39,958 nucleotides of DNA. It comes from an uncultured Erysipelotrichaceae bacterium. Its GTDB lineage: Bacteria > Bacillota_I > Bacilli_A > RFN20 > CAG-826. Location of the stretch: positions 1-39,958 of the forward strand of contig CAMVEL010000018.1 in assembly GCA_947166565.1 (NCBI GenBank), given 5' to 3'. The position numbers and the translations under genes were made by a program. Under the pieces are notes generated by a model that worked only from the letters and a program-made list of their open reading frames with translations, did not search any database and was not told the DNA's origin. Below are positions 22,953 to 37,814 of this stretch, in pieces (the stretch's first letter is position 1; each line of letters opens with the position of its first letter).

Positions 22953-24209
22953 CTAACTAATTAATCTATTGAATTCTTCTCGAAGCAAAACCTTCAGTTC
23001 TTTTGTGTCCAATATATTGAGCAAATACTGTCTTTCCGCTTCGTCATACGCCACTAGGTAGGCGACGTTGAGATGGCGTCTTAGGAAGAATCCCCGCTCC
23101 ACCCACTTTTTGATCATCGGAAGGGTCTCGTCCACGTGCATCTTAGTCTCAAGGGAGACGGCGAACATCCTTTCCTTCGGCGCATCTTCTGGCGTCGGGG
23201 CGCTTAGGAGTTCGTTGAGCTCTTCGTGGTAAGGGGCGAGCTCGGCCTTCCTTTTGTTGATTTCCGCCCTTCTTGCCGCGTTTTCCTTATGGCGTCTCTT
23301 CATTGACCTGTATTCCCTGATGGATTCACGCTGACACGCGGGACAACCGTATATTAGTTCCATGACGGTCTTGCTTGTCTTTTCGACAATCGCCTTGAGG
23401 ATCATCATCGTGATGTAGGCGTCCTCGTCAGGGCGGTGCTGGGTTATCCCCTCGATGCTTAGCCCAAGGAACGTGGCCGCCTTCTCTAGCGACGGGATTC
23501 CTTTGAAGTCCGGGAATTCCTTCATAAAGATTTGTTGGACGTCGTAGGAGACAAAGGACGGGCAGGTCATCCTGTAGCGAAAACATTGATCGAGCAAGGC
23601 CTGGATATCGTTCTCGGATGCCCACATAAACACCAGGACGCTCGGCTGTCTGAGATAGAACGAGATGTCGTTGTGGAACTCGTCGAATCGGGGCGACCTT
23701 TTGTATTCGGCGTGGGAATGGGCGAGGATGAGGTCGCGGTGTCCCTTGCGTCCGACGAGGTTGAACCTCCCATCCATTCCTGGATTCATCAGGATGTCTT
23801 TCCTGCCGTTTTGTATCTCGCTGAAAGAAGTGTCGGTCGCATAATGACCATATTCGCACATCTTGTAAACGCCGTCGAAGCAATTAGAACTCTCTGTGTC
23901 GACGAAGAGCAAGGATGAGAATGAGGCTTTGTATGGGTCGATGCCCTCTTTCCTCAAGGCGGCCTCGATTTTTTCAATCCTGCATTCGTTTTCCATTTGT
24001 CTATTTCTATCCTCAAAGAACGGTGCTTCCATCTCTTCGACGTTTCTAGAGACGATTTCTTTCGGTTGGTCGCTCAGATCAGCAGATTCGACCACCGTTT
24101 TAGTGTTGGGTCTTTGGGCGTCTCTTAAATCAGCTAGGATCTCCGCTCTAGTATTGGTGACGCGCTGGCGCCATTCCTTCAATAATTCGTTGGTTTCTTT
24201 CTTTTCCAT
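22953..24209 (-). CDS. DEDDh-type 3'-5' exonuclease domain protein
   Basis: The 418-residue protein has an RNase-H-fold exonuclease core. Visible motifs are D104-x-E106 (LFVDTES), D201 in ASENDIQALLDQ, and H258-x4-D263 (HRPDED), which together match the DEDDh (DnaQ/RNase T) superfamily. An acidic/basic helical N-terminus (about 1-95) precedes the core and a charged coiled-coil region (about 295-345) follows. C284 and C287 could bind metal. Start: AAGGAGG about 10 bases upstream of ATG 24209. It is the last gene of the cassette, set off by hairpin/operator copy D. It probably degrades or trims nucleic acid for the system. Confidence 0.8.
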   Translation of the reverse strand: MEKKETNELLKEWRQRVTNTRAEILADLRDAQRPNTKTVVESADLSDQPKEIVSRNVEEMEAPFFEDRNRQMENECRIEKIEAALRKEGIDPYKASFSSLLFVDTESSNCFDGVYKMCEYGHYATDTSFSEIQNGRKDILMNPGMDGRFNLVGRKGHRDLILAHSHAEYKRSPRFDEFHNDISFYLRQPSVLVFMWASENDIQALLDQCFRYRMTCPSFVSYDVQQIFMKEFPDFKGIPSLEKAATFLGLSIEGITQHRPDEDAYITMMILKAIVEKTSKTVMELIYGCPACQRESIREYRSMKRRHKENAARRAEINKRKAELAPYHEELNELLSAPTPEDAPKERMFAVSLETKMHVDETLPMIKKWVERGFFLRRHLNVAYLVAYDEAERQYLLNILDTKELKVLLREEFNRLIS

Positions 24210-24253
24210 GTTTGGTTGTTCCTCCTTGGATGGCTAAATGATGGACCAAACGG

Positions 24254-24282
24254 AAAAGAACCGCACTGCACCGGCGGTTCAA
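24254..24282 (-). promoter_or_regulatory. Cassette element copy D: hairpin/operator before the exonuclease gene
   Basis: Minus-strand TTGAACCGCCGGTGCA (24282-24267) is one of four similar elements in the cassette. It also forms a hairpin GAACCGC/GCGGTTC (24280-24258) followed by TTTT, so it may attenuate read-through from the radical-SAM gene, whose stop codon it overlaps. Confidence 0.6.
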
Positions 24283-24824
24283 TGGATACCTAGGAGCTCT
24301 TCGACCAGTGTTTTGCTGCGGCCGTGCAGCTCGATGCCGTCTCCAATAATGGCCTCGTAGGAGGAAGGCTTTTGAAAGTCCTTAGCGGTATATCTGTCGG
24401 TGAATAGGTCGATTCTTTGGTTTCTGGAGCCCATGAGATAGAGGGAGTCGTCCCTTTGGCTTGGGTCAAAGGGCCCGCTAATGACGCAGTCGCAGAGCCT
24501 TGCGGTTTTCAGTTTGTCGCCCTCCAATTCACTTAGGTTATACCCGGTGAAGAGGATGATGCCGACATCCCTTCTCTTTAATTCGGAGACGAATTCGAAG
24601 ATCTCGCCCTGCTGAAGAGGCTCGCCTCCCAAGAGGGTCACCTCCTTGCTTACGACCTCATCGGCCAGTTTGGCTGGCTCATAGAGGGATTCGGGTTCGC
24701 TCGACCATAGTTCGGGGTTGATGCAGCCCTTGCACCGGAGCGTGCAACCCTTGAACCAAATGACGTCCCTGTTCCCGGGGCCGTAGATTTTCGATCCGTG
24801 GAATAGGCGATGGACGTTCAGCAT
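24279..24824 (-). CDS. Radical-SAM activase-like protein (NrdG/PFL-activase type)
   Basis: The 181-residue size and the CxxxCxxC cluster (C27-TLR-C31-KG-C34, within WFKGCTLRCKGC) are typical of small glycyl-radical activases such as NrdG. GGEP (LLGGEPL, about 64-70), used for SAM binding, is present. No glycyl-radical enzyme is encoded nearby. Its 1-bp overlap with the DUF1257-like gene ties it to the cassette, so it may modify a cassette protein or a nucleotide instead. Radical-SAM proteins are known in some antiviral systems (viperins), but this one is of the short activase form. Confidence 0.85.
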   Translation of the reverse strand: MLNVHRLFHGSKIYGPGNRDVIWFKGCTLRCKGCINPELWSSEPESLYEPAKLADEVVSKEVTLLGGEPLQQGEIFEFVSELKRRDVGIILFTGYNLSELEGDKLKTARLCDCVISGPFDPSQRDDSLYLMGSRNQRIDLFTDRYTAKDFQKPSSYEAIIGDGIELHGRSKTLVEELLGIH

Positions 24825-25348
24825 CAGTATTCCCTCCGCACGAATTGGAGCTGAATGCCCTGCTTCGTCTTCTCTTCGATGACATCGTAGCCTTTTGCCT
24901 CAGCAGCCTCACAGAGTTCTTCTTTGATTGCCTCACATTCGGGTTTTTCCTGCCGTTGCATGGCCGCGATGCTTTTTGTCTTTGCCTTCTCCATCTGCTC
25001 GATTTCCGCGAGTAGGGAGGCTTCGGCTGCGGCGCTCTCCCTCAATCGTCTTTGGTTCTCTTCGAGTTCGTTAAGGTAATCGCTTTGGGCTACCGCGATT
25101 CTTTTCGTGAATAGCTCCCGAAGCTCGCTCCTTTTATTTGATTGACGCATGTGACTACCGTATTGGAGGACAATCCTTTTGCCGATGGCGAGTTGGCCGA
25201 GGTATTCTCCGCCGATATAGAGAGCGTTTGACTTTAATTCGCCACGCATCTCCTCGACGCAGGATAGGAAGACTCGCCTCATCGTCTGTTCTGGGACGAT
25301 GCAGGACGCGGCCATAAGGGTAATGTCAAAATTCACAGTGCTGCTCAT
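24824..25348 (-). CDS. DUF1257 (Ycf35)-like protein with coiled-coil insert
   Basis: The 174-residue protein ends with a segment (AEAKGYDVIEEKTKQGIQLQ) resembling the C-terminal part of DUF1257/Ycf35 proteins, which have a GYxVxEE...GxIxL pattern. Residues about 90-140 form an Ala/Glu/Arg-rich coiled coil that ordinary DUF1257 proteins lack. It overlaps the upstream DUF2997-like gene by 4 bases and the radical-SAM gene by 1. In cyanobacteria and plastids the DUF1257 family and the Ycf46 AAA protein are both conserved, which fits the Ycf46-like ATPase in this cassette. Assignment moderate; function unknown. Confidence 0.75.
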   Translation of the reverse strand: MSSTVNFDITLMAASCIVPEQTMRRVFLSCVEEMRGELKSNALYIGGEYLGQLAIGKRIVLQYGSHMRQSNKRSELRELFTKRIAVAQSDYLNELEENQRRLRESAAAEASLLAEIEQMEKAKTKSIAAMQRQEKPECEAIKEELCEAAEAKGYDVIEEKTKQGIQLQFVRREY

Positions 25349-25542
25349 ACGATTACCCCCACTCCGCTTTCAACGGTCTCTTCTTCTTCATAATAGTCGG
25401 ATTTGTGCTCGAAGCCATCCACTTCGGCGAATTCGTCGAAGAGTTCCGTGATGGCCTTGACGCAGGAAGGCCCTCTGTAGCCGTCGGTCTCGACAAACAC
25501 CTTTCCGCCGTTGTCAAGAGATACGTTTATCTTCTTAGGCAT
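25345..25542 (-). CDS. DUF2997-like small protein
   Basis: The start at 25542 (MPKKINVSL) is chosen over 25602 because GGAGTTCG precedes it and it begins like the family. The 65 residues show the DUF2997 pattern: short strands, then GGKVFVETDGYRGPSC, then a helix (AITELFDEF) and an acidic YYEEEE tail. DUF2997 genes typically sit next to DUF1257 genes, as here. It overlaps the genes on both sides (8 and 4 bases), so translation is tightly coupled. Confidence 0.75.
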   Translation of the reverse strand: MPKKINVSLDNGGKVFVETDGYRGPSCVKAITELFDEFAEVDGFEHKSDYYEEEETVESGVGVIV

Positions 25543-25852
25543 GATCGCCGAACTCCTTCCTCGACCAATTGTAGGCATCAATCCAGTCGATTCCCCGCAC
25601 AATAAGTTCTGCCCTTAACGCGTGGAGTCTCATCTCATTCTCAGTTTTGGCCTTATCGGCTTTATCGAATTCTGGATTGTTCTCGAGACCCCCTTTTCTT
25701 AGCGCATCGTGGACGGCAATAATAATCTCCCCGTTGCCTTTCATTGCCCTGTCCATAGCCTCTGTGAGCAAAGCCTCAGTTGGCATCTCTTTGACGTCGA
25801 GCATGTCCTGGACTCTTTTTATTTTGGATTTGGTTTGTTTGCATGTCTGCAT
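25535..25852 (-). CDS. Small helical protein of the cassette
   Basis: The 105-residue product starts at ATG 25852, 10 bases after AAGGAGA; the longer reading to 25909 would run through the hairpin. It is almost entirely helical and charged (EALLTEAMDRAMKGNGEIII, LRAELIVRGIDWIDAYNWSR). No family is recognised. It opens the second subset of cassette genes after hairpin/operator copy C. Confidence 0.7.
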   Translation of the reverse strand: MQTCKQTKSKIKRVQDMLDVKEMPTEALLTEAMDRAMKGNGEIIIAVHDALRKGGLENNPEFDKADKAKTENEMRLHALRAELIVRGIDWIDAYNWSRKEFGDHA

Positions 25853-25885
25853 ATTTGGTTTTTCTCCTTGTTGTGCCCAAATGAT

Positions 25886-25925
25886 AGAAAAACCGCCGAT
25901 GCTTCTCACTGCACCAGCGGTTCAA
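25886..25925 (-). promoter_or_regulatory. Cassette element copy C: hairpin/operator between gene subsets
   Basis: Minus-strand TTGAACCGCTGGTGCA (25925-25910) matches the shared element. AACCGC (25922-25917) can also pair with GCGGTT (25896-25891), followed by a run of T, giving a terminator- or attenuator-like hairpin just after the 450-residue gene and 36 bases before ATG 25852. Confidence 0.6.
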
Positions 25926-25935
25926 ACATTTTAGG

Positions 25936-27288
25936 CTATTGTTTCGAATCGAGGATAAGCGTCGCTTCTAAGCCGCTTTCCTTAAGCCAGGCTTTGCCCT
26001 CTTTCAGCTTGCCTTCATCGGCCAAGGCGAGGTAATTGGCCTTGCCTTTGACAAGAAGTGTGCCGAGCAGCTCGTGAGGGACGACAAACGACTCCTTGCT
26101 TTGGTTAATGGTCGGGAAGCTGTTCTTTTTGTTCTTGAGGGCATCAACCCCGTAATCGAGGCCGGACACCAACTCGTTGTAGAGGCGGACCTTCTCCTCA
26201 AATACAGGCTCCGATTGTACGGTCTTGATTCGCTTAGCGACGCCCTTATCGTCCAAGTCGAGCTTCTCGAGCTTTTCGAGCCCCGATTGGATTTGTTCCG
26301 CGATCTGCTTGCGGATCTTGTAATTCGGGGACAGCTGGTAGCTGCCGTCCCTGACCATTGGTAGGACGTCCACGTTGATTTCGGTTCTGACGGAGATTTG
26401 GTTCCTCTTGGCATAGATGGAATCGAAGTCCGGCTCATAGCCATCTACCTCGCCAACCGGGACATAGACGGTTTCGTTGATGGTCTCGACGTCCAGCACC
26501 TGGAGGTTCTTCCCCTTGTAAAAGATATTTTTCCAGACGAGGTCTTTCGGGCTTGCGTGTTCTGGGTCAAAACTATTGGCATACTGAAGGTCCCAGCCGT
26601 TCTCGATTTCATAGAAGGCGTCCGGGATGATCTCGACGAAGAGTCTTCTTTGGTCGACGTATGCCCTGCAGTCAAGCGGCATGGCGATGGCGGTTTGCTC
26701 GTAATTGCCGAGTTCGCTGACGATAATGCCTTTGTTGCTTGGGATCCCGACAGTGGCGAAATCGTGCTGAGTTGACCCCGCCTTGGCCCCTACCGATGGA
26801 ACCGGCATGACGACGCTTAGCATCGTTTGCTGGACCTCCCTCGACTCGCCGAACGAGTATTCGTTGTCGGTTTTTGTCCAAAGGAGGTGGTTGGCGAACT
26901 GGAAGATCTCGTCCGACCCTGCGGCGATTTTATTGATGCGGCCTTTACCGAAGCATGCCCACGCCTCCTTCTTATCGATGATGATAAGTCCGAGACCCAC
27001 CGTCTCATTCGTTGCACGGAAGAATCCGGTGTTGACGCCCCTACCCTTTAGGCCGGCGAGCGTCTTCTTGCTGACCAGGCCGGCGACCACGACTTTTTTA
27101 TCGTTTAGGATACCGGCGCATTCGTTAAGGAATGAGCCGAGGATATAATCGCCCGTGTCGACGATTGTTACGCTCGTCTCCGCTTTGGAACACACTTCGC
27201 AAACCGAAGGACTCGTTGTGTTTTGATCCTTGAGAATGAACCCATATCCAAGAGGGGAATCGTTTTGATAAGTTCGAGTTTTTCTCAT
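25936..27288 (-). CDS. Large cassette protein, possibly with an inactive PLD-like domain
   Basis: The 450-residue soluble protein overlaps nothing and starts 4 bases after the preceding stop, with AAGGAG upstream. Two cysteines (C30, C33: CEVC) lie near the N-terminus. Residues about 40-150 (LKGRGVNTGFF, GLIIIDKKEAWACF, FANHLLWT) resemble the beta-alpha layout of a phospholipase-D-like domain, but the HxK catalytic histidine is not where expected, so it would be a non-catalytic version. The remainder, to a helical C-terminus, is unrecognised. It ends the first subset of cassette genes. Alternative: an unrelated scaffold. Confidence 0.7.
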   Translation of the reverse strand: MRKTRTYQNDSPLGYGFILKDQNTTSPSVCEVCSKAETSVTIVDTGDYILGSFLNECAGILNDKKVVVAGLVSKKTLAGLKGRGVNTGFFRATNETVGLGLIIIDKKEAWACFGKGRINKIAAGSDEIFQFANHLLWTKTDNEYSFGESREVQQTMLSVVMPVPSVGAKAGSTQHDFATVGIPSNKGIIVSELGNYEQTAIAMPLDCRAYVDQRRLFVEIIPDAFYEIENGWDLQYANSFDPEHASPKDLVWKNIFYKGKNLQVLDVETINETVYVPVGEVDGYEPDFDSIYAKRNQISVRTEINVDVLPMVRDGSYQLSPNYKIRKQIAEQIQSGLEKLEKLDLDDKGVAKRIKTVQSEPVFEEKVRLYNELVSGLDYGVDALKNKKNSFPTINQSKESFVVPHELLGTLLVKGKANYLALADEGKLKEGKAWLKESGLEATLILDSKQ

Positions 27289-27292
27289 CGTT

Positions 27293-28792
27293 TTACTCCT
27301 TTATCATGTCGATCAAGCTCTTTCCGGATTTGACAACTTCCGCGTTATTTACTGGGAAAAGGTTTCCTTTTGTCTCGGAAGAGTGAGGCTTGAAAATCTG
27401 CCCGATCTCGCATGTACACAAGAGAACTTGGTGTCCACCATTTCTTAGATCGAAGACGAGGTACCTATCATGAAAATCATCGATTAGGCCTTCTTTGTCT
27501 TTGATGGATACGCCTTTTTGGGAGACCATCGTCCTAAGGGTCGGATCTTCTTCCTGATTCGGCCTGTCGCGCCATTTTTTGAAGACGACCGTCATGCTCG
27601 GGTAATACGCTTTTAGCGCATCAATGCTATCCAAAATGCGATTGTTCCTCGTTTTCACGAATGGGTAGCCCATGACTAAGTGAAGCCGAGTGACTTCGCT
27701 GGGAGACACTTCGTTCGCGATTGCGGCGGCCAATTCGGAATAGTTTTTGCATCTGGAGAAGCTCGTATTCTTCATCGTCTCTAAGCCCAAATATTCCTCC
27801 ATGACCCTCAGGCGATAATCCAGTTTCGAGTATTTTTCCGGGGGCAAGTTTCTCTTGAAGGCGTTTCTATTGACTTCAATCGTCGACACAAAATCACGAA
27901 GCGAAGCGTCAATGATAGGGCTCGTTGCGATCTCGTTTTGTACGAGTTCCTCCATCTCTTCTAGCGAATAATAGTTTCCGGCCATAAGGCGCTCGTATAG
28001 CCACAGGAATACGTATTTGCTTGCGACAGCCTCGGACTTTATCAAAAGCGGGATGTCGATTAGCTCGACCGGGGCCGCGGAAAGGGTTGTGACGCCGTTC
28101 ATTAGCGAGCGTGTATCGAAGTCCTCCAAATTGAGGACCACGACGGACATGTCTTCCGTAAGTACGCAGTAAGGGAATAACTCTTTTGATTTTTCGACTG
28201 CGAATTTGAAGAGAATGTCATGGAACTTATCCCCCATGCAAAGTCTTTTCCCTTTGTATTCGTAAGTTCCTTGAGACAAATTGAAGACCACCCTGTTCTT
28301 CTGCTCATGAAGCAGATAGGCCGTCTGATTCCCTTCGACGTTGATTGAGACCATGTAGCCTTTCTCCGTGGCGTCGATTCCGAATTCCACGCCCTCTATA
28401 GCAACGGCAGGTTCTACTCTGCTTTTTTCGGCTTTTTCGGTGGACAGTTTTCGCATTACCTGCGGAACGAAGGACATCCCCAAGCCATCATCTGGCAGGA
28501 AGCAGTATTCAAAAGAGAATATCCCCTCTTCGTCCTGAGCAAGCCTCGGATTTGCAATGAAGGCATCGGATTTCGCCGTTAGCGACCCGCTTCCGTCGAG
28601 CAGCCCGTCCCTCTTAAGCTTGGTGGACACCGCACTAGCCACTGGGGCCGACGAAAACACAGAAAGAAGGGTATGTCCTTGCTTAAGTTCTGTAAGCAAT
28701 TTCGCCACGTCCTCGCGCATCCTCTCGTAATGCAGCGAGGCCTTTGTTTCGACAACGGTCACTTCGACCGGTAAGGTTAATCTAATCGGCAT
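27293..28792 (-). CDS. Large cassette protein with C-terminal PLD-like HDR motif
   Basis: The 499-residue protein starts 2 bases after the helicase stop codon. The C-terminal part contains FHDRYLVFDL (H441-D442-R443) followed by CEIGQIF, a pattern seen in PLD-like domains that use HDR in place of HxK. Residues 1-430 show no known domain; about 35-80 could be a winged helix (TKLKRDGLLDGSGSLTAKSD). Together with the gene after it, this gives two non-enzymatic or PLD-like partners next to the helicase, as in several defence loci where helicases pair with PLD nucleases. Nuclease activity is not established. Confidence 0.75.
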   Translation of the reverse strand: MPIRLTLPVEVTVVETKASLHYERMREDVAKLLTELKQGHTLLSVFSSAPVASAVSTKLKRDGLLDGSGSLTAKSDAFIANPRLAQDEEGIFSFEYCFLPDDGLGMSFVPQVMRKLSTEKAEKSRVEPAVAIEGVEFGIDATEKGYMVSINVEGNQTAYLLHEQKNRVVFNLSQGTYEYKGKRLCMGDKFHDILFKFAVEKSKELFPYCVLTEDMSVVVLNLEDFDTRSLMNGVTTLSAAPVELIDIPLLIKSEAVASKYVFLWLYERLMAGNYYSLEEMEELVQNEIATSPIIDASLRDFVSTIEVNRNAFKRNLPPEKYSKLDYRLRVMEEYLGLETMKNTSFSRCKNYSELAAAIANEVSPSEVTRLHLVMGYPFVKTRNNRILDSIDALKAYYPSMTVVFKKWRDRPNQEEDPTLRTMVSQKGVSIKDKEGLIDDFHDRYLVFDLRNGGHQVLLCTCEIGQIFKPHSSETKGNLFPVNNAEVVKSGKSLIDMIKE

Positions 28793-28794
28793 GT

Positions 28795-31749
28795 TTATTT
28801 GACCTCCTGGTAGAGCTGCCTAAGAAGTTCACGGTTCCCTAGGCTTTGGAAGAACGGTTCGTTTCCGAAGACTATCAGCTTCTCTTTCGCCCTGGTGATG
28901 GCGACGTTCACCCTGTTGATGCTATCCAAGAATCCCTTGCCCCTCCTTCTAACAACGGAAAGGTATACGACATCCGCCTCTTGTCCTTGGAATTTGTCGA
29001 CCGTATTGATGGTGACGTGGAGATTTTCCGAGAAAAAGTTGTACAGGCTTTTGCTTCCGAATAACTTTTGGACTTTGTTTCTGAGTGAAATCAGCTGTCT
29101 GTTGTAGAACGTCAGTACGGCCAGTTCGTATGGCTTGCCGTCATTCCTCGGGTGGCTTTTTGAGAACGCCACGAAGTTCTCGAGTTCCTTTAATATTGCA
29201 TTCGCCTCGTTCTCGTTGAGGTTCTGCATCCCGTTTGCGGGCGCATCTATCAAACGAAGTTCTAATCTGGAAGCGGTTTTGCCGGGATAATCGAAGTGCG
29301 ATTCCCAATATGGACTGTCCTTCAGAGCCTTGTCTTCGTAGACGTATTTTCTCGATACTCTCGAAATATCCGGGTGCATGCGGTGCTGATATTCGAGCAT
29401 GATGAAGCGATTTTGCATATCCTCTTCGTTGATGCCATGTGTGAGGATGGATATGTGCTGACTTTCCCGCCTATCAACACCCTCTTGAAGCATCATGATG
29501 ATGGACGGAATCGCTATGTCGCTTAATAGATGCATGCTTTCCAGGAACGATTCCTTTTCGTCGTCCGCCAAAAGGTCTGTGTAGGCATCTATGACAGAAC
29601 GGCAGTTTTTGGCCGATTGCTGGTCTTCCTTGAGTTCGTAGAGTCGGATAAGCCGCCAAATGATTTCGTCCTCGACTCTTTTTTGAAATTCGTCGAGTTC
29701 GTCATCGTAAGATTCACCAAAGCCGCCCTTGGATTTGATCGAGATGAAGCGCGGATCTTTCCTTAGGTCCGTCTTATAATCGATGACCTCGCATTTTGGA
29801 GGAAGGTATTGGATTGCGTCTTTTGCGAGAGATTCTTCCAATAAGAACGTTGCGGTGTCGGCCGAAAGAGCCACTACCAGAGGCGTCTTGGCCCTTAAGT
29901 CATCACTGCTGATAGTCGTGATTCGCCCAAGCGCGGAATTGGTACATGCCACTAGGGGCATTCCTTGGAGTCTTGCAACGTTTTTATCGATGTACTCGAT
30001 TGTGGTTTTTGGCAATACAAATGCCCTATTAGCCGTTTGTGCCTTTCGGCGGTTGTTGGCAAGATGATAGAGCAATTGCAACCCTATCCTTTTCGTTGGC
30101 TCGTTCAGCGCTGGGCATTCCAAAAGGGTCGGCACCAAATCGCTCTGCTCGACGTATGGAGCGAGCTGTTTTACGTCGCCGACCACGATCCATTTTTTGC
30201 ATACGATCGCCGGGACCAAGAATTCGCTGAACGTCGTTTTAGAGGCTTCGTCGAGGATCATCACGTCGAACATCGGTTCTAAAGAAACGTTCTTCGCGTT
30301 GTCGATAGCCTTTTCGATTTCGGGATATCTAAGGACGCCAATTACCGTCCCACAAACAAGGTTAAAGCTGGAATCGACGATTTCGTCGTAGCCGGGATTT
30401 ATCTTGCCCTTAATCTCGTCGTACATGAACGGCTTGACGGCATCGGAACAGATTCTGTTGGCGTCGCCCACGCGGACTGGATTGATGGCCGCAAGTAAGT
30501 CGTCCTTCGCTGGATGGGAGAGTATTTTCTCTAAGACATTATCGATAGCGACGTGGGTTGAAGCACATAGGAGAACCCTTTTCCCCTCTTTGCAAAGCTG
30601 GTATATGAGTTCGAGGATAGCCGTGGTTTTGCCTGAGCCTGGCGGCCCTTGCAAAATCATAAAATCGGGGGTTTGGAGCGCGTTCTGGACAAACTTTCTT
30701 TGGGTCGCGGTGCCACTTCTGTTCATATCGGTAAGGACTTTGTAGCGGATTGAAACTGTGTTTGGATTAAAATCATCCAAGCCAAACTTATCTTTGTCGA
30801 AGGCTAGTGTTAACAACGGTTTATGCCAAATCGACGGGCGTCTGGTAAGAATGTTCAACGCGTTTTGCTGCCTGAACAATTGGGTCAGATCGGTGTTTAC
30901 ATAGACCTTTTTATATCCAGAGATGTTTTTGCCTTCGGTCTTAATCGTGATTGTCCCGCTTTCGCGTTCCCTGTCGACGATATCGAACGTTTCGCTCCTG
31001 TTTTGATCGAAATAGACGGAATCGTAATCGCCATCGAAGAACACGTCATAAAGAGATAGTTCCGATGTTGGATCGTCCTCTATTTCTATTACGGTCCTCC
31101 CCTTTCCAGGGCCTCCGACCTTGGTTAGGCTGTATCGGATGCTCGAGTCGGCGGAATCGAAAACACCGGAGTCGTCATAATTTGGAATGTGTACCTTACC
31201 ATTCAACACCCCATATTGCTTGCCTTTGAAAATAACGCTCAACGAGGCGAAAGGAGCCCTGTCGATTTGCAAAGAAGGGTCGCCGTTAATTACGACGACA
31301 TCTTTGTCACCGCACTCGACAATGGCCTTCCCGAAACTCATTCGGAGTGGGAAAAGCCGCCCATTTACAGAGACAGATTCTATTTGGATGTCCTCAACCG
31401 GAATTCCATAGCTTTGCGCGGCTTCATAACCCGCTGGGTCGTAGGGGCGGACCTGGCCGTTTATTTTCTTATTCAAGATCTTAACCAAGAACACCGGTGA
31501 CAGGCTGTATTCGTCGTTCGCGTTGTGTATTCTAAAGGATGCGCCAGCCGAGGATTTGCCTCTAGCCACATCCAACGCTTTTTTCACATACGAGACGAAT
31601 TTCCCATATTGAACATGGACCGCGGTCTGAACCACCTTGCTTTTTCTTTCGCCGTAAATTGCATCGAAAGCCAGCTCTTTTGCTTTCTCGAAAGACGTGT
31701 AATTCTTGTCCGGTTGTCCTTGTTGTCTTGCTTCTTGTTTTTCTGGCAT
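28795..31749 (-). CDS. Upf1-like superfamily 1 helicase
   Basis: The 984-residue protein has an N-terminal extension of about 340 residues rich in beta strands, then a complete SF1 helicase: Walker A GPPGSGKT at 368-375, DEAS motif II at 500-503, GDVKQLAP (motif III) near 525-532, TVDKFQGQE (motif V) near 920 and NVAITRAK (motif VI) near 945. The motif set is that of the Upf1/AAA_11-AAA_12 group, which unwind RNA or DNA 5'-3'. It lies 6 bases after the AAA+ gene and 2 bases before the next one. The N-terminal extension is not recognised and may bind cassette partners. Confidence 0.95.
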   Translation of the reverse strand: MPEKQEARQQGQPDKNYTSFEKAKELAFDAIYGERKSKVVQTAVHVQYGKFVSYVKKALDVARGKSSAGASFRIHNANDEYSLSPVFLVKILNKKINGQVRPYDPAGYEAAQSYGIPVEDIQIESVSVNGRLFPLRMSFGKAIVECGDKDVVVINGDPSLQIDRAPFASLSVIFKGKQYGVLNGKVHIPNYDDSGVFDSADSSIRYSLTKVGGPGKGRTVIEIEDDPTSELSLYDVFFDGDYDSVYFDQNRSETFDIVDRERESGTITIKTEGKNISGYKKVYVNTDLTQLFRQQNALNILTRRPSIWHKPLLTLAFDKDKFGLDDFNPNTVSIRYKVLTDMNRSGTATQRKFVQNALQTPDFMILQGPPGSGKTTAILELIYQLCKEGKRVLLCASTHVAIDNVLEKILSHPAKDDLLAAINPVRVGDANRICSDAVKPFMYDEIKGKINPGYDEIVDSSFNLVCGTVIGVLRYPEIEKAIDNAKNVSLEPMFDVMILDEASKTTFSEFLVPAIVCKKWIVVGDVKQLAPYVEQSDLVPTLLECPALNEPTKRIGLQLLYHLANNRRKAQTANRAFVLPKTTIEYIDKNVARLQGMPLVACTNSALGRITTISSDDLRAKTPLVVALSADTATFLLEESLAKDAIQYLPPKCEVIDYKTDLRKDPRFISIKSKGGFGESYDDELDEFQKRVEDEIIWRLIRLYELKEDQQSAKNCRSVIDAYTDLLADDEKESFLESMHLLSDIAIPSIIMMLQEGVDRRESQHISILTHGINEEDMQNRFIMLEYQHRMHPDISRVSRKYVYEDKALKDSPYWESHFDYPGKTASRLELRLIDAPANGMQNLNENEANAILKELENFVAFSKSHPRNDGKPYELAVLTFYNRQLISLRNKVQKLFGSKSLYNFFSENLHVTINTVDKFQGQEADVVYLSVVRRRGKGFLDSINRVNVAITRAKEKLIVFGNEPFFQSLGNRELLRQLYQEVK

Positions 31750-31755
31750 CTTATC

Positions 31756-33300
31756 CTACCCTAGCAACGGGTTGTAGCATTCCGTCTTTAAGCGGACGAC
31801 CTGCTCAGTCCCCTGGATCTCTTCTGTGAACTCATCGCCGGCGATCCTAGCCCGGTTCTTCGCCCATTCCCTGATGGCCGCGATTTTTTCCGACATCACG
31901 GTGGAAATCGGCGTGAGCTTTCTTCTGACGGCAATTATACCATCGGTATCGATATCTTTCCCTTGGGAAAAAGCATCAAATAACGAATCCGCGATTAGAG
32001 AGCCAATTTCGGCGCCCGTGAGGCCGTTGGTCTTCTCCGCGAGGAGGTCCAGATCGAACCCCTTCGGATCGCGTTTCTTCTGGGCGAGGTGGATCCGGAA
32101 AATCTCCTTCCTCTCCTCGAAGGACGGGAGGTCCACGAAGAATATCTCGTCGAATCTGCCCTTCCTTAGCAACTCTGGCGGAAGCTGCTCTATGTTGTTC
32201 GCGGTCGCGACGACGAACACGGGCTCCTTCTTCTCCTGCATCCAGGTAAGCAAAGTGCCGAACACTCGGGACGCCGTTCCGCCATCGGTCCTATCGGACG
32301 AACCCAAGCCGGAAAGTCCCTTCTCGATTTCGTCAATCCACAGGACGCACGGGGCGATCGTCTTCGCGACGTCGAGAGCGCGGCGCATATTGGCCTCGCT
32401 TTGCCCCACCACTCCGCCGAAGACCTTGCCAAGATCAAACCTTAACAACGGGTAGTTCCAGGATTTGGCGATGCACTTCGCCGTAAGCGATTTGCCACAT
32501 CCAGGCAAGCCCAAGAGCAACACGCCCTTTGGCGTATCTAATCCAAACTCAGAGGCAGTTTGCGTGAATGCTTTCCCGCGGAGCGAGAGCCAGTTTTTCA
32601 AGGATTTGAGGCCGCCGATATTATCCATGCCGTCACTAACATGGTAATACTCCAGCAAGCCATCTTTCTTGATGATATGCTCCTTTTCGGAGATGAGATA
32701 GTCGATGACGGAATCGTCGAGCCTGCCGTACTTTTGGACGGCCTTTAGGAAGGCCAGTTCCACCTCCGTGGTGGTTAGACCCAAGACGGAATTAAGCAAT
32801 TGCTCCGTGATGGCATAGCGGTCGGTAGCGAGCTCCGTGTTAATAATGACGCTTTGGGCGATCTTCTTGATGAAGTCCCTGTCGGGAAGGGGCATGTCGA
32901 GAACCGCTATCTCTTTGGCAAGAGCCGATGGGAGACAAACGTCGCTTGTCTCGATTATGAGAGACTTCTGCTTTACCTTCTTCATCTTCACAATTTCAAA
33001 CAGAAGATTAATGACCTCCGCGTTGTTCATGAAGAGATTGAAGTTTTCAAGAATCAGGTAGTAGGAATCTTGATCATCTCTATATTTCCTAAGAAGGGCA
33101 AGAGGATCCTTAATTGGTTCGATTGACCCATCTGTGTCGACAATGCCAACGGATTGGTTCCACCGCTTCCATTTGGTGAGATTTGCCCCGGCGATTGCAT
33201 TGACGGCGGTCTGGAGTTTCTGCCACTCGTAGGTGACGACCTCAATGATGGGTTTTTTACACTTGAGCAGTAATTCAAACTCTTCTTCAAATCGATTCAT
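31756..33300 (-). CDS. Ycf46-like AAA+ ATPase
   Basis: The 514 residues equal the usual Ycf46 length. The N-terminal half (about 1-215) is the family-specific inactive ATPase-like region (YYLILENFNLF). The C-terminal AAA+ module has Walker A GLPGCGKS at 264-271, Walker B WIDEIEKG (D323-E324), sensor-1 VVATANN and the arginine-finger segment LRKGRFDE. Start: AAGGAG about 10 bases upstream of ATG 33300. In cyanobacteria and plastids Ycf46 accompanies DUF1257/DUF2997 families; here all three occur in one cassette. It is the likely motor that remodels the other components. Confidence 0.93.
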   Translation of the reverse strand: MNRFEEEFELLLKCKKPIIEVVTYEWQKLQTAVNAIAGANLTKWKRWNQSVGIVDTDGSIEPIKDPLALLRKYRDDQDSYYLILENFNLFMNNAEVINLLFEIVKMKKVKQKSLIIETSDVCLPSALAKEIAVLDMPLPDRDFIKKIAQSVIINTELATDRYAITEQLLNSVLGLTTTEVELAFLKAVQKYGRLDDSVIDYLISEKEHIIKKDGLLEYYHVSDGMDNIGGLKSLKNWLSLRGKAFTQTASEFGLDTPKGVLLLGLPGCGKSLTAKCIAKSWNYPLLRFDLGKVFGGVVGQSEANMRRALDVAKTIAPCVLWIDEIEKGLSGLGSSDRTDGGTASRVFGTLLTWMQEKKEPVFVVATANNIEQLPPELLRKGRFDEIFFVDLPSFEERKEIFRIHLAQKKRDPKGFDLDLLAEKTNGLTGAEIGSLIADSLFDAFSQGKDIDTDGIIAVRRKLTPISTVMSEKIAAIREWAKNRARIAGDEFTEEIQGTEQVVRLKTECYNPLLG

Positions 33301-33319
33301 ATGAGTTAGTCTCCTTTAT

Positions 33320-33727
33320 TCAATGCGTAGAGAAACTGAGCACTCCACGGAAGCCATAGCGTATCGTCTCTTTTTCCCTGCGACGGAGGAAGAGACGTTT
33401 TTGTTCTTTACTGTCCTGCTTGTCTTCGTTTTTTGACGATCGGACTATTTCAAGATTTTGGCAATGGGCCCTTTGATCTTGGATGTTGCGAGCACGGAAA
33501 TAAGGGTCGTTCATATTCATCTCGAGTTGGACGCGGAATTCCTCTTCATTCACTTTTCGAACGCTGACAATCGCGTCCTTCCAGTGGTGCTTGACCCTAC
33601 CGAATCCGCGCACCTTGGTCGCGGCCTCGCTTGGGTTTTCAGCTTTGGTCGGGAATGTTTTGATGGTGAAGTTGTTGCGTCCGACATGGCCGCATTTCGC
33701 TTCGACGATGTAATATTTCTTTTCCAT
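33320..33727 (-). CDS. Small cassette protein of unknown function
   Basis: The 135-residue product starts at ATG 33727, 6 bases after AGGAGG; the 33754 start is less likely. The N-terminal half is a compact alpha/beta domain (YYIVEAKCGHVG, then KVRGFGRVKHHWKDAI); the C-terminal 40 residues are highly basic (RLFLRRREKE), as in nucleic-acid-binding tails. It is the first gene after operator copy B and starts the main run 19 bases before the AAA+ gene. Unrecognised family. Confidence 0.75.
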   Translation of the reverse strand: MEKKYYIVEAKCGHVGRNNFTIKTFPTKAENPSEAATKVRGFGRVKHHWKDAIVSVRKVNEEEFRVQLEMNMNDPYFRARNIQDQRAHCQNLEIVRSSKNEDKQDSKEQKRLFLRRREKETIRYGFRGVLSFSTH

Positions 33728-33787
33728 TGATGTGTCCTCCTTCGTTTTGGACACCCATATGTTATTAATAGGTTTATAGGAGAACCA

Positions 33788-33803
33788 TGAACCCAGAGTT
33801 CAA
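33788..33803 (-). promoter_or_regulatory. Cassette element copy B upstream of the main operon
   Basis: Minus-strand TTGAACTCTGGGTTCA (33803-33788) is the most diverged of four related elements but keeps GAAC/GTTC arms. It lies 61 bases before ATG 33727. TATAAA, 19 bases past the TTGAAC, is a possible -10, so it may overlap the promoter of the main operon. Confidence 0.5.
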
Positions 33804-33810
33804 AGGGCAG

Positions 33811-33847
33811 AAAAAAAGACAGCGCCCCTTAGCGGAGCAAGCTGTCT
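33811..33847 (-). terminator. Strong terminator of the first XRE gene
   Basis: On the minus strand, AGACAGC-TT-GCTCC-GCTAA-GGGGC-GCTGTCT forms a two-part stem followed by T7. The 5' arm lies inside the last codons of the XRE gene and the stop codon is in the stem, so the regulator is a separate transcription unit from the AAA/helicase operon. Confidence 0.85.
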
Positions 33848-34053
33848 AAACTCACTTCGAGCACCATCGCGATGCGGCAGATCGTATCCAAGCGCGGTGT
33901 CTTGAACCCGTCCTCATAGTCATAGACCAGACGGGTGCTGACGTCCACCATCTCGGCGAACGCCTCGTAGGTGATGCCTTTTTCAAGGCGGATCCTGCGA
34001 AGATTGGGGCCGAAATTCTTCGTGTCGAGTGGGTTTTGTTTTTTGTTAGTCAT
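33829..34053 (-). CDS. XRE-family HTH regulator 1
   Basis: The 74-residue protein is a bare Cro/C1-type helix-turn-helix: LRRIRLEKGITYEAFAEMV, VSTRLVYDYEDG and a DTICRIAMVLEVSLDSLL tail. A strong AAGGAGG precedes ATG 34053. It has its own extended -10 promoter, a TCACA/TGTGA palindrome that probably serves as its operator, and its own terminator. It is likely one of two dedicated regulators of the downstream cassette. Confidence 0.9.
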   Translation of the reverse strand: MTNKKQNPLDTKNFGPNLRRIRLEKGITYEAFAEMVDVSTRLVYDYEDGFKTPRLDTICRIAMVLEVSLDSLLR

Positions 34054-34090
34054 CTGTGCTGTCCTCCTTTGACAGATTCGCGGGAAGTAA

Positions 34091-34122
34091 TCACAGTTGT
34101 GACTAACACGGAAATTATACCA
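34091..34122 (-). promoter_or_regulatory. Promoter and operator of XRE gene 1
   Basis: TGGTATAAT (34122-34114) is an extended -10. TCACA-GT-TGTGA (34091-34102) is a perfect palindrome just downstream, near the expected start of transcription, well placed for autorepression. TCCGCTAAGGGGC (34124-34136) just upstream is the inverse of the terminator arm at 33824-33836. Confidence 0.6.
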
Positions 34123-34141
34123 TTCCGCTAAGGGGCTTTCC

Positions 34142-34384
34142 TTAATTGGTTTCGCGGGAACTAAAACCTAAGACGAGTTCGTCGACGCTCACGTTGAACC
34201 GATTACAGATTGCCACGACCGTTCTAAGGCTGGGAACGGAGGTACCTGATTCCCACTTTTGAACAGATGACGCACTAAAAGATCCAATCTCTTTGGCAAA
34301 CGAATCGCGAGATAAGCCAAAACCGTTTCGCAAGGAGCGAATGCGGAGGCCAATCGCTTTTGAATCCAAGAAATGTTTGTTCAT
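34142..34384 (-). CDS. XRE-family HTH regulator 2
   Basis: An 80-residue Cro/C1-type HTH protein starting at ATG 34384 (MNKHFL), 5 bases after AGGAGG; 34399 is less likely. It contains LRNGFGLSRDSFAKEIGSFS, SSVQKWESG and a short helical tail ending VSVDELVLGF. It differs clearly from XRE regulator 1, so the two probably recognise different sites. The perfect palindrome TGAACC-GCT-GGTTCA upstream of it, repeated at three other cassette gene starts, is a good candidate for its operator. Confidence 0.9.
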   Translation of the reverse strand: MNKHFLDSKAIGLRIRSLRNGFGLSRDSFAKEIGSFSASSVQKWESGTSVPSLRTVVAICNRFNVSVDELVLGFSSRETN

Positions 34385-34427
34385 TTTTCCTCCTGCCAAA
34401 AATTATGTATTAGAAAGTCATCACCGC

Positions 34428-34445
34428 TATGAACCAGCGGTTCAA
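34428..34445 (-). promoter_or_regulatory. Cassette element copy A: perfect palindrome before XRE gene 2
   Basis: Minus-strand TTGAACCGCTGGTTCATA contains TGAACC-GCT-GGTTCA, a perfect 15-bp palindrome, 44 bases upstream of ATG 34384. This is the most symmetric of the four cassette copies, as expected for the autoregulatory site of the regulator that binds them. Confidence 0.6.
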
Positions 34446-34609: not shown

Positions 34610-35437
34610 ATGCACCCAGGGTTAGTCTTCTTATTTATATTGATAGGTGGAACAGTACTCTTTTTGGCTATATTCTTGCCAATCTTTTTGATTCTCAGGA
34701 AATATAAGGAGATCGTAAGATCCCATAGTCTTTCTTTTAAAACAATAAAAGAAATCGAAGGCAAATATGATTTTAATCCGATCCCAAATTTTAATATGTA
34801 CCATTCCTATGATAACGAGAATTTCTATTCGGATATTTCGTGCCACGATTATCTGACTTATGAGTTGGTCTATCTTAAAAAGGATGTCTTAACAGCATGC
34901 GAAGACGCGGAGAAGAACCACATACAATTTGAAAAAATGCTTGAGGAAGCTAAGAACAGATGTGAACTTGGTAAATACGATTGTGAAGTTAAAGTTCGGT
35001 TCCGCAAGGTTCTAGATAAAATTGAGGAAAAGCTATGTTTCCAAGCAATTCCTCAACCACAAACAAGATTTACCATTACCGTCCAATTAACCCTCACAAA
35101 TATCAATGGAGTTTATAGAAGAGCAAAAGCGTCGGAATTTGATGCTGACGAAATAAAAGCAATCATCCATTATCTAAACCAAAAACGAGGTGATTTTTAT
35201 TTAGACCGTGGAACATATGAGGCAATTGCAAGGGTCGAACGCGGAAAAGTCTCAAACAGAATGAGGTTTGCCATTTATAAAAGAGATGGGTATCGCTGCA
35301 GAAAATGCGGAAGAACCACGGATTTAGAGATAGATCATATCATTCCAATTGCAAAAGGCGGAAAGACAACCATGTCTAATCTCCAAACTTTATGCCATAG
35401 ATGCAATCAACGAAAGGGGGATAGGATTGAATACTAA
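34610..35437 (+). CDS. Membrane-anchored HNH endonuclease
   Basis: The 275-residue protein begins with a hydrophobic helix at about 5-29 followed by basic residues, consistent with an N-terminal membrane anchor and a cytoplasmic body. The middle (about 30-215) is unrecognised and partly helical. The C-terminal 58 residues are a complete HNH domain: YRCRKC, the DH pair in LEIDHIIP, NLQTLC and CHRCNQRKGD. Its start has AAGGGAAG about 10 bases upstream and it has its own extended -10 promoter. It is divergent from XRE gene 2 and may belong to the same accessory region. Membrane-tethered HNH nucleases occur in anti-phage settings, but the target here is unknown. Confidence 0.88.
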   Translation: MHPGLVFLFILIGGTVLFLAIFLPIFLILRKYKEIVRSHSLSFKTIKEIEGKYDFNPIPNFNMYHSYDNENFYSDISCHDYLTYELVYLKKDVLTACEDAEKNHIQFEKMLEEAKNRCELGKYDCEVKVRFRKVLDKIEEKLCFQAIPQPQTRFTITVQLTLTNINGVYRRAKASEFDADEIKAIIHYLNQKRGDFYLDRGTYEAIARVERGKVSNRMRFAIYKRDGYRCRKCGRTTDLEIDHIIPIAKGGKTTMSNLQTLCHRCNQRKGDRIEY

Positions 35438-35664
35438 TGTTTGAATCAAATCAGGTTGAAAACGGCAGTCCCATTTAACGGTTAATAAAAAAGTGATTTG
35501 TCTCTAATGTTGGGTGATTTTGAACCTGAAGTTCATTTAGTTTTATAGCTTCTTTTTACCTTTTGCTGTATCTATTCAATGACAGGAGTTTGTTATTTTG
35601 CTTTTCGACAACAACATAATCTTTCGCGGATTTTCCAAGGAACGTTTTAATATCCACTTCCGTT

Positions 35665-36449: not shown

Positions 36450-37814
36450 CTAATTGGCCCCTTCGAGGGGTTTGGCGTTCTTGGCGATGATCAAGGCGAT
36501 TTCATCCTTCGATAAATTAGACTTCTTCTTAAGGATAGGATGGATCAGTCGCCCTATCTCCATGTTCTCCTTGACCGCTTCGACCGCCTTATCAAGCGCC
36601 GATTCAAGGTTCGCGCGTATTACTTCGTTCCTGACTTGGGCGGCCCCTTTTCCCATCTCGAAGACCGAGCGGCCATAGGCCGCATAGGTGCGTTCGAGGT
36701 CGGCCAAGTCGATGCAGTCAAAGCCGAAGGCACCGCTCGATACGCAGAGAGAGATCATGCCGGTGGCCTTCCCTATGTCACCCGCGGATCCGCAGTACCT
36801 CTGTCCGAGGAAGACCTTCTCCCCGGCGATGCCGCCCATGTATACCGCGGCTTTGTTGAGGAGCTCGCTCACGGATGACTCGCCTAACTCTTCACCAGTC
36901 GCTGAATCCTTGTCGTCGACCTCAGCCCTTCCCTCGATGTCTCCATATTTGTCCAACGAGATAGAGGTGGGCTCCCCATAGATCGCGTAATGAGTAAGCA
37001 TATGGCCTATCTCATGATATATGAGGTGGTCGCCAGGCTCCTTCTTTCTCTCCTTCTTGATCTCCCCGAAGCGGATTGGGGGGATAGCGCGGAGGAAATC
37101 GTCCATGACCGGGTTGCGTTTTTCCCGAACAGCATCGACGAGTGCGTTGTTGACCATGGCCTTGATGTCCGCTCCGGTGAAGCCTGCGGTCTTGGAGGCG
37201 AGGGAGGCGGAGTCGATCCCGCCTATCCTATGCTCGTTCAGGTAGAGCTCGATTATCTTCCGTCTGTCTGTAAGACTCGGTTTTTCGAAGCTGATCTGCC
37301 TTTCTAGCCTCCCGCTCCGCAACAGGGATTTTGGGATGTAGGACTTGCAGTTGCTGGTCGCGATGACGAGCACGCCAGAGCTCGCCTCTATGCCGTCGAT
37401 CTCAGATAGGAGCGTCTTCAGGCAGCCCCTGGTCTCGTCGCTCTCGTAGCCCAAGAAATACTTCGTCGCCGCGTTTACGGCTATCGTCTCGTCCAACTCG
37501 TCTATGAAGAGGATCGAGGGCGCGCTCTCCTTCGCCTTCTTGAAGGCAAGGGTGAGTTTTTCGGCGGACTCGGCCCCCTTTCCGTCCTCGGAGTTGTAGA
37601 TGATGATTGGGACATTCGCCTCGTTGGCGATGGCCTTGGCGAACATGGTCTTGCCGACCCCGGGATCCCCTGATAGGAGGAGGCCTTTGGGGACCTCGGC
37701 CCCGCGCTTCCTGTAGTCGTCGTACCTGCACAGGACGTCGATCAGCGCCCTCGCCTGCTCCTTCTCCTCCTCGTACCCCGCGATTGATTTTAGTGTGATG
37801 TTTTTCGTTTCCAT
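36450..37814 (-). CDS. FtsH-like AAA+ zinc protease without the N-terminal membrane segment
   Basis: The 454-residue protein combines an AAA+ domain (Walker A GDPGVGKT at 49-56, Walker B D105-E106, arginine finger SGRLER) with an M41-type protease: HEIGH zinc site at H267-H271 and the third ligand D346 in GSAGDIGKAT. Normal FtsH is about 600-650 residues with two N-terminal membrane helices; both are absent here, starting directly at the AAA module. Two small membrane proteins follow in the same direction and could supply the missing anchor. Start: AGGGGT 7 bases upstream. It follows a terminator, so it has its own promoter, which carries a TTTGCAC/GTGCAAA repeat. Confidence 0.92.
   Translation of the reverse strand: METKNITLKSIAGYEEEKEQARALIDVLCRYDDYRKRGAEVPKGLLLSGDPGVGKTMFAKAIANEANVPIIIYNSEDGKGAESAEKLTLAFKKAKESAPSILFIDELDETIAVNAATKYFLGYESDETRGCLKTLLSEIDGIEASSGVLVIATSNCKSYIPKSLLRSGRLERQISFEKPSLTDRRKIIELYLNEHRIGGIDSASLASKTAGFTGADIKAMVNNALVDAVREKRNPVMDDFLRAIPPIRFGEIKKERKKEPGDHLIYHEIGHMLTHYAIYGEPTSISLDKYGDIEGRAEVDDKDSATGEELGESSVSELLNKAAVYMGGIAGEKVFLGQRYCGSAGDIGKATGMISLCVSSGAFGFDCIDLADLERTYAAYGRSVFEMGKGAAQVRNEVIRANLESALDKAVEAVKENMEIGRLIHPILKKKSNLSKDEIALIIAKNAKPLEGAN

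Follow-up and report, generated by a model that had tools for sequence, protein, structure and literature searches.

Gene content of the locus

We have analysed a stretch of 39,958 nucleotides from an uncultured Erysipelotrichaceae bacterium (contig CAMVEL010000018.1 of assembly GCA_947166565.1), hereafter called the window, in which a gene cassette with two regulators, a helicase, an AAA+ ATPase and a radical S-adenosylmethionine (SAM) protein lies between positions 22953 and 34445. An earlier note, made from the letters of this DNA, proposed that it is an undescribed conflict system of twelve same-strand genes, nearly all overlapping or a few bases apart. The list of open reading frames (ORFs) agrees with this layout. 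All 12 genes are on the minus strand, and from the AAA+ gene to the radical-SAM gene the spacing is −8 to +6 bp, except for 83 bp before a small ORF; the spacing ahead of the exonuclease gene is 69 bp. The upper limit, 34445, falls at an upstream sequence of dyad symmetry (34430..34444). The features are as follows, in the direction of transcription.

34430..34444, minus strand: perfect 15-bp dyad TGAACC-GCT-GGTTCA, a putative operator some 46 bp ahead of the first XRE gene
34142..34384, minus strand: XRE-type regulator 1 (HTH_3), with a homologue in genome G115
33829..34053, minus strand: XRE-type regulator 2 (HTH_3), 47% identical to the G115 copy
33788..33802, minus strand: putative operator with one mismatch, upstream of the gene for the 144-amino acid (aa) protein
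33320..33754, minus strand: 144-aa protein, CGHV...RVKHH motif, present in all seven cassette loci
31756..33300, minus strand: Ycf46-like AAA+ ATPase, Walker A GLPGCGKS, Walker B VLWIDE
28795..31749, minus strand: superfamily 1 (SF1) Upf1-like helicase, MkoA-related, from profile matches and motifs
27293..28792, minus strand: 499-aa protein, likely phospholipase-D (PLD) fold, HxR motif (His441/Arg443) near the C-terminus
25936..27288, minus strand: 450-aa protein, likely degenerate PLD fold, without the HxKx4D motif
25910..25924, minus strand: putative operator with one mismatch, upstream of the small accessory ORF
25535..25852, minus strand: small accessory ORF, 105 aa from ATG (124 aa if read from GTG), found in the window copy only
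25345..25542, minus strand: DUF2997 protein, 65 aa, near-cut-off profile match
24824..25348, minus strand: 174-aa protein adjoining DUF2997, family not confirmed
24279..24824, minus strand: NrdG-like radical-SAM protein, CTLRCKGC and GGEP motifs, below the NrdG equivalog cut-off
24267..24281, minus strand: putative operator with one mismatch, at the radical-SAM stop codon and upstream of the exonuclease gene
22953..24209, minus strand: DEDDh exonuclease-like accessory, DTE at 104 and HRPDED at 258

Scans against the Pfam, NCBIfam and PADLOC profile libraries covered ten of the twelve operon proteins, and a scan against phrog profiles covered nine.

Other copies of the cassette

There are seven distinct cassette loci: that in the window, those in genomes G115 (contig L016) and G268 (L014), and those on contigs L017, L018 (contig 68 of G630), L019 and L020, L016 and L018 each being counted once. 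Four are complete, while L017, L018 and L019 end at a contig edge within the helicase or AAA+ gene. All four complete loci contain the genes for the 144-aa type protein, AAA+, helicase, 499-aa type, 450-aa type, DUF2997, 174-aa type and radical-SAM proteins together with at least one XRE regulator, and from AAA+ to radical SAM the gene order is identical in each, apart from the small ORF of the window. The XRE genes are placed ahead of the 144-aa type gene in the window, G115, L018 and L019, and behind it in G268, L017 and L020. Two HTH_3 regulators are present in the window and G115 (by Pfam) and in L018 and L019 (by similarity); G268 has one plus an ORF lacking a Pfam match, and L020 has one.

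Identity between the window and G115 proteins is 76% for AAA+, 54% for radical SAM, 46% for the helicase and 35% for both the 499- and the 450-aa protein. Such divergence with retention of gene order points to an old synteny under selection. Eight of the twelve genes, with at least one XRE, are kept together, whereas the exonuclease and the small ORF gave no tblastn match in G115, G268 and L020, the three other loci that extend far enough to reveal them, and are for that reason accessories.

The cassette is rare. In the order it is present in two of 147 genomes (helicase search; the other is G115), and in the class and the phylum in two of 395 and two of 392 genomes, respectively (two-row 499-aa profile; the other is G268 in both), the window's own genome being included in each count. 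G115 was not among the matches listed in the class and phylum searches. In a species-genome collection, the N-terminus of the AAA+ protein used as two short patterns found five loci, one being the G115 contig; of these contigs, one is from an uncultured Erysipelotrichaceae bacterium, two are from 'Bacilli bacterium' assemblies and two from 'Tenericutes bacterium' assemblies. An earlier scan of genome contigs with the helicase alone gave no match. The genes are syntenic and rare, and this argues against their being scattered core metabolism.

Transfer at rlmD

Two of the copies reveal movement. L019 and L016 share a match of 3860 bp at 94.3% identity, while their RlmD proteins are only 46.9% identical. 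The final 33 bp of rlmD are the same in both, and there are 40 mismatches in the preceding 117 bp. This break in identity looks like the result of integration at the 3′ end of rlmD. As the two copies hardly differ from these 33 bp outward, in contrast to their diverged RlmD proteins, we conclude that the cassette is mobile. We take rlmD and rumA to be orthologues. In Streptococcus suis, elements of this kind have a known hotspot at rumA, according to PMC7168690. The visible part of L018 is shared at 87% from the dyad before XRE1 onward, and its flanking genes are unrelated. A serine recombinase is located near the G115 copy (by Pfam), and two recombinase-like genes, read from translations, precede the L017 copy. 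A search of 130 kb of G115 revealed no copy of the rlmD 3′ end that would mark attR. Taken together, the gene set is real, old and mobile.

We note that the window carries, at 36450-37814, an FtsH-like AAA+ gene with an M41 peptidase domain that matches IetA models. In an rlmD-linked stretch of G078 (L052), a similar AAA+ gene accompanies a gene homologous to that of the window's exonuclease.

A conserved dyad upstream of cassette genes

The dyad TGAACC-N3-GGTTCA occurs at four junctions of the cassette in the window. The copy before XRE1 is exact, and those ahead of the 144-aa gene, ahead of the small ORF and between the radical-SAM and exonuclease genes have one mismatch each. The dyad is found upstream of the 144-aa type gene in eight of eight loci, comprising the seven cassettes and a solitary gene in G078 that is included in the dyad count and not in the cassette count; the L020 copy has two mismatches. 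It also lies upstream of XRE1 in the window, G115, L018 and L019, and with two mismatches upstream of another accessory, a 224-aa gene, in G115. With up to two mismatches there are 23 dyad matches in the eight stretches, compared with a mean of 4.7 and a maximum of 9 in 20 single-base shuffles, and five other spacer lengths gave 2–6 matches in the same stretches. Not all of the 23 are intergenic, and those within genes are probably chance matches. In the host assembly, allowing one mismatch, there are eight sites, five of them within 11.3 kb at the cassette; the reversed control gave four. A longer exact motif, TTGAACCGCTGGTNCA, is present in four of 57 genomes of the family. An exact dyad within a gene of L053 (G134) and a match to the longer motif in L054 (G649) are taken as chance occurrences.

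The conservation of this dyad across the cassette loci is a new observation. Its position suggests that it is an operator bound by the cassette XRE proteins, and since it lies upstream of both the exonuclease gene and the small ORF, these are likely members of the same regulon. A fifth dyad in the vicinity (35521-35535, one mismatch) is downstream of an HNH gene (34610-35437), without an obvious target gene.

Two other identities for the dyad were considered and rejected. The LexA box of Bacillus has an N4 spacer, whereas the half-sites GAAC and GTTC are here 5 bp apart. As to an RNA element, some copies of the dyad region are terminator-like, but the structure is not kept and Rfam gave no match. 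In folds of the eight dyad regions z ranged from +0.22 to −5.36, with six values in the interval from +0.22 to −1.33.

The helicase and the PLD-like proteins

The assignment of the helicase as Upf1-like is firm, with Pfam matches to AAA_12 (119 bits) and AAA_11 (105 bits) and the helicase motifs present. The closest solved structures are Smubp-2 and Upf1. In PADLOC it matches MkoA (PDLC03920) with 248 bits and E 4.4e-74; the match is made of three stretches, the best of which spans positions 884–1081 of the 1112 in the profile.

The two proteins encoded next had been described as PLD-like. This holds at the level of the fold, as judged from models of the 499- and 450-aa proteins; they have no HKD motif, and neither matched any PADLOC family. 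The 499-aa model has a pLDDT (predicted local distance difference test) of 80, built on a three-row alignment, and in a Foldseek search 26 of the 31 top rows were chains of tyrosyl-DNA phosphodiesterase 1 or phospholipase D1/2/3, many being entries for the same protein. The best rows for the 450-aa model were TrmB, TrmBL2, F13, FAM83-type, Nuc and Zucchini chains, with E from 1.5e-4. We take TrmB, FAM83 and also MITD1 (see below) to be PLD folds. From the order of strands and helices, the PLD part would in our reading be located C-terminally in one protein and N-terminally in the other. The sequence HDR at 441-443 of the 499-aa type is kept in all four complete copies. On our reading of the models the two proteins may be the halves of one PLD-type unit, with one half-site altered and the other dead.

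Profile scans of the 499-, 450-, 174- and 144-aa proteins yielded nothing useful, and in sequence searches the 499-, 450- and 174-aa profiles matched no solved structure below E 0.2. The 499-aa profile did not match those of the PIN and Vibrio PLD proteins discussed below, and the 450-aa profile matched neither these nor the 499-aa profile. A resemblance between the N-terminus of the 499-aa protein and a Vibrio 370-aa protein (profile E 0.0096, probability 4%) is suggestive at most, and we do not claim it.

The accessory gene at the end of the operon encodes a DEDDh exonuclease-like protein. This protein has the DxE and HxxxxD motifs and matches phrog_192 (E 3.6e-5), and a homologue matches PF21762.

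The AAA+, DUF2997 and radical-SAM proteins

Both XRE proteins of the proposed pair match HTH_3. The AAA+ protein is firmly placed by PF00004 (107 bits), phrog_8638 (426 bits) and its Walker motifs, and is 36-47% identical to seven plasmid relatives (profile-profile E 3e-126). We refer to this type as Ycf46-like. The DUF2997 match scores 24.0 bits against a cut-off of 24.1, and is backed by a profile-profile match (E 1.6e-8) to four plasmid DUF2997 proteins. The radical-SAM protein is again secure (Fer4_12, 92 bits; CxxxCxxC); its nearest named family is NrdG, at 80.8 bits, below the equivalog cut-off of 126.1.

By contrast the proposed DUF1257 member fails. The 174-aa protein matches no DUF1257 profile in any of its four members, a search of the host assembly with PF06868 gave no match, and there was no profile-profile match to DUF1257, a weak test with a profile made from two sequences. 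Of the trio said to recall cyanobacterial and plastid families, Ycf46 and DUF2997 have a real link to cyanobacteria, and the third member is not confirmed.

The small accessory ORF has a weak match to GreA_GreB_N, below cut-off. For the 144-aa protein, plasmids gave no match; a homologue (49% over 82 aa) is encoded directly upstream of nrdG and nrdD in phage NatCom_17901 (L033:7004-7411).

Relatives on plasmids and in phages

The AAA+ protein matches 47 plasmid records at E ≤1e-60, of which seven were examined. A Paenibacillus plasmid has the order AAA-DUF1257-DUF2997-radical SAM, Rhodococcus and Paenarthrobacter plasmids have AAA-141 aa-DUF2997-one further gene-radical SAM, and a B. licheniformis plasmid has AAA, DUF1257 and DUF2997. 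Modules of AAA, DUF2997 and radical SAM exist on plasmids without the helicase. On Phytobacter and Exiguobacterium plasmids the AAA+ gene is in other settings, with none of these partners annotated. On a Treponema succinifaciens plasmid (L025:8366-10521) a radical-SAM and Ycf46-like AAA+ pair lies in a contractile-injection-like locus.

In phages 54 records match the AAA+ protein at 1e-30, and the one examined has no such partner annotated. Viral contigs were scanned for the helicase, the AAA+ N-terminus, the 144-aa and the 499-aa protein without finding a relative, a weak test in which each of the four scans used two short patterns; the NatCom_17901 homologue comes from another collection.

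A parallel operon of helicase, PIN protein, 370-aa protein, AAA and radical SAM is carried by plasmids of Acinetobacter, Polaromonas, Moellerella, Leisingera and Photobacterium (L031, L032, L037, L038 and L039). These are five of six plasmids examined among 14 helicase-matching records; that of Aliarcobacter has no such operon. The Acinetobacter operon has an MkoA-like helicase (320 bits), and its PIN protein aligns through the N-terminus with positions 6-189 of MkoB (E 1.1e-5). The C-terminus of the 370-aa protein is weakly DUF2997-like (blastp E 1.5e-4 in a small set, profile E 3.1e-4 with a probability of 39%, Pfam E 0.05). The helicase profiles of the cassette and the parallel operon align only over their ATPase parts. 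A PADLOC scan of all but the radical-SAM gene of the Acinetobacter operon named no such system. This separate pairing is the best reason for thinking that the radical-SAM, AAA+ and DUF2997-like parts may regulate helicase-nuclease effectors. More generally, an SF1 helicase with a PLD or PIN protein recurs in other loci.

Vibrio and Pontibrevibacter plasmids (L008, L009 and L010) have operons of helicase, 370-aa protein, PLD and a sigma54 (CARF) regulator. That of V. aerogenes is followed by cas genes, and that of Pontibrevibacter is preceded by dnd genes.

Genomic neighbourhood

In PADLOC scans, the G268 copy has JetC (725 bits) and JetD (340) of Wadjet upstream and TmtA (710) directly downstream. 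DrmA (424 bits) and DrmB (125) of DISARM and a NERD-helicase lie upstream of the L020 copy, and PDC-M33A (340 bits) with a methyltransferase is 6.5-11.4 kb downstream of that in G115. L017 has type I restriction-like genes, read from translations, and the wider region of the window contains AbiEi-like (below cut-off) and FtsH/IetA-like genes. PADLOC defence genes thus lie near three of the seven loci, which suggests an enrichment in defence islands.

Some further features of these regions were noted. In the window the AbiEi-like regulator is followed by an ORF resembling by eye an AbiEii nucleotidyltransferase (16201-17555), possibly an AbiE-type toxin-antitoxin pair. vWA-like proteins that are alike by eye are encoded directly after the cassette in L020 (18696-19292) and 9.6 kb from it in the window (12762-13358). 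At 209-1174 of the window, a G+C-rich stretch (0.63) contains two near-identical long ORFs arranged in tandem at a distance of 522 bp.

Comparison with known systems

Among PADLOC-named systems only the helicase (MkoA and others), the AAA+ protein (IetA and others) and the radical-SAM protein (pVip, 18 bits) find a match. No operon protein is over a curated NCBIfam cut-off among the best 25 matches, and neither library has models that span the gene set. We found no description of the set in the literature listings searched, where preprints and subscription papers are poorly covered.

Mokosh pairs a helicase with PLD. It has a kinase domain in or beside MkoA, and its MkoB or MkoC is a PLD nuclease with an HKD motif. 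A passage of PMC10952713 lists PLD for Mokosh and NERD for Mokosh type I. The cassette is similar in having a Upf1-like SF1 helicase paired with PLD-fold proteins. It differs in that there is no kinase or NERD match by Pfam in the ten proteins scanned, no HKD motif and no match to MkoB, and in the addition of the AAA+/DUF2997/radical-SAM module and the dyad operators. The MkoB model searched over 295 genomes of the phylum gave matches to the PLD part only, in two of them. Because kinase or NERD, the HKD motif and the MkoB match all fail, the cassette is not a member of Mokosh; its effector half resembles it.

PMC4284462 places DUF2997, Ycf35 and ferredoxin 7 of Synechocystis in one cluster. 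The cassette shares with the cyanobacterial and plastid Ycf46-Ycf35 (DUF1257)-DUF2997-ferredoxin 7 set a Ycf46-type AAA+, DUF2997 and an Fe-S partner. However, a radical-SAM protein takes the place of the ferredoxin, DUF1257 is not confirmed, and the module is coupled to a helicase and PLD-like proteins.

The proteobacterial PIN operon, for which we found no published name, has in common with the cassette an MkoA-like helicase, a nuclease, AAA+, radical SAM and the weakly DUF2997-like C-terminus. It has PIN where the cassette has PLD, and a ClpB/ClpA-like rather than a Ycf46-like AAA+. The Vibrio/Pontibrevibacter operon contains the closest relatives of the helicase outside the cassette (profile E 3e-106) and a PLD protein. 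That protein is DrmC-like (98 bits), and an RtcR_PspF1 CARF-AAA-HTH (helix-turn-helix) regulator is present in contrast to the radical-SAM module.

A probable function of the cassette

We think that the cassette is probably a mobile, operator-controlled system acting against invaders, either phage or plasmid. This is supported by the four complete loci, the rarity of the set, its transfer at rlmD, the defence neighbours, the relation to MkoA, the PLD folds, the plasmid parallels and the dyads.

Some observations weigh against a role in defence or against the way we would explain it. No Foldseek row for the 499-aa model is below E 0.001, the best being MITD1 at 0.0055, and the model of the 450-aa protein is poor, with a pLDDT of 55. 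The sole PLD-like motif is HxR rather than HxK, so that catalysis by it is doubtful, and HxKx4D is absent from all four 450-aa type proteins. The AAA+ protein of the parallel operon belongs to another family, ClpB/ClpA-like (271 bits). The Ycf46-type AAA+ is not confined to defence, being found in phages and in the injection-system-like locus. Lastly, the single visible flanks of L018 and L019 contain metabolic or housekeeping genes and, by eye, no defence gene.

The cassette could be a divergent Mokosh system with passenger genes, given the helicase match to PADLOC MkoA (E 4.4e-74) and the PLD folds of the two models. We regard this as quite unlikely. The 499- and 450-aa proteins have no PADLOC match, neither kinase nor NERD was found in the ten scanned proteins, and there is no HKD motif. 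Moreover the AAA+, DUF2997, 174-aa and radical-SAM genes are hardly passengers when they are kept in all four complete loci. A stabilizing or housekeeping set of the mobile element, serving RNA repair, maintenance or transfer and not immunity, would fit the fact that the cassette rides integrated elements, with serine recombinases adjoining two loci (G115 and L017), as well as the cyanobacterial DUF2997 and Ycf35 genes that adjoin a ferredoxin gene (PMC4284462). Yet no relaxase or conjugation family is found among the twelve proteins, three loci neighbour different defence systems, and the pairing of SF1 helicase with PLD or PIN recurs elsewhere, which makes this explanation unlikely.

It would be very surprising if the radical-SAM protein were simply the cell's activase of anaerobic ribonucleotide reductase and the operon served nucleotide metabolism. 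NrdG is its nearest named family (80.8 bits), the host assembly, which is 92% complete, has two other matches to the NrdG profile with no more than 32.7 and 23.7 bits, and the homologue of the 144-aa protein adjoins nrdG-nrdD in phage NatCom_17901. But the score is below the equivalog cut-off of 126.1, the operon encodes no glycyl-radical enzyme family, and the plasmid relatives accompany AAA+ and DUF2997.

If the cassette is an anti-invader system, a possible mechanism can be outlined. The XRE proteins would bind the TGAACC-N3-GGTTCA dyads and keep expression low. On release, the helicase and the two PLD-fold proteins could form a complex that tracks and cuts nucleic acid, as thought for Mokosh; this is suggested by relatedness and fold. 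The AAA+, DUF2997, 174-aa and radical-SAM proteins would then be a regulatory module that remodels or licenses the effector, perhaps by modifying one of the small proteins through radical chemistry. The module looks exchangeable in its gene content, as it is found alone on plasmids, and similar parts accompany helicase and PIN in Proteobacteria. The exonuclease and the small ORF have dyads of their own and may be optional members of the regulon. Integrated elements carry the cassette as cargo when it spreads; at rlmD at least, this is shown by the identity break.

A broader suggestion can be made tentatively: there may be a class of immune systems in which an NrdG-like radical-SAM protein and an AAA+ protein license a helicase-nuclease effector, with the nuclease (PLD or PIN) and the AAA+ (Ycf46- or ClpB-like) interchangeable, and of which the cyanobacterial and plastid Ycf46/DUF2997/Fe-S set would be a domesticated or shared branch. 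If so, helicase-nuclease immunity would be controlled at one step by radical chemistry in two designs, one in Bacilli and one on proteobacterial plasmids, and this would open a way to study DUF2997, Ycf46 and related genes. The conserved dyad offers a means to find further members of the regulon.

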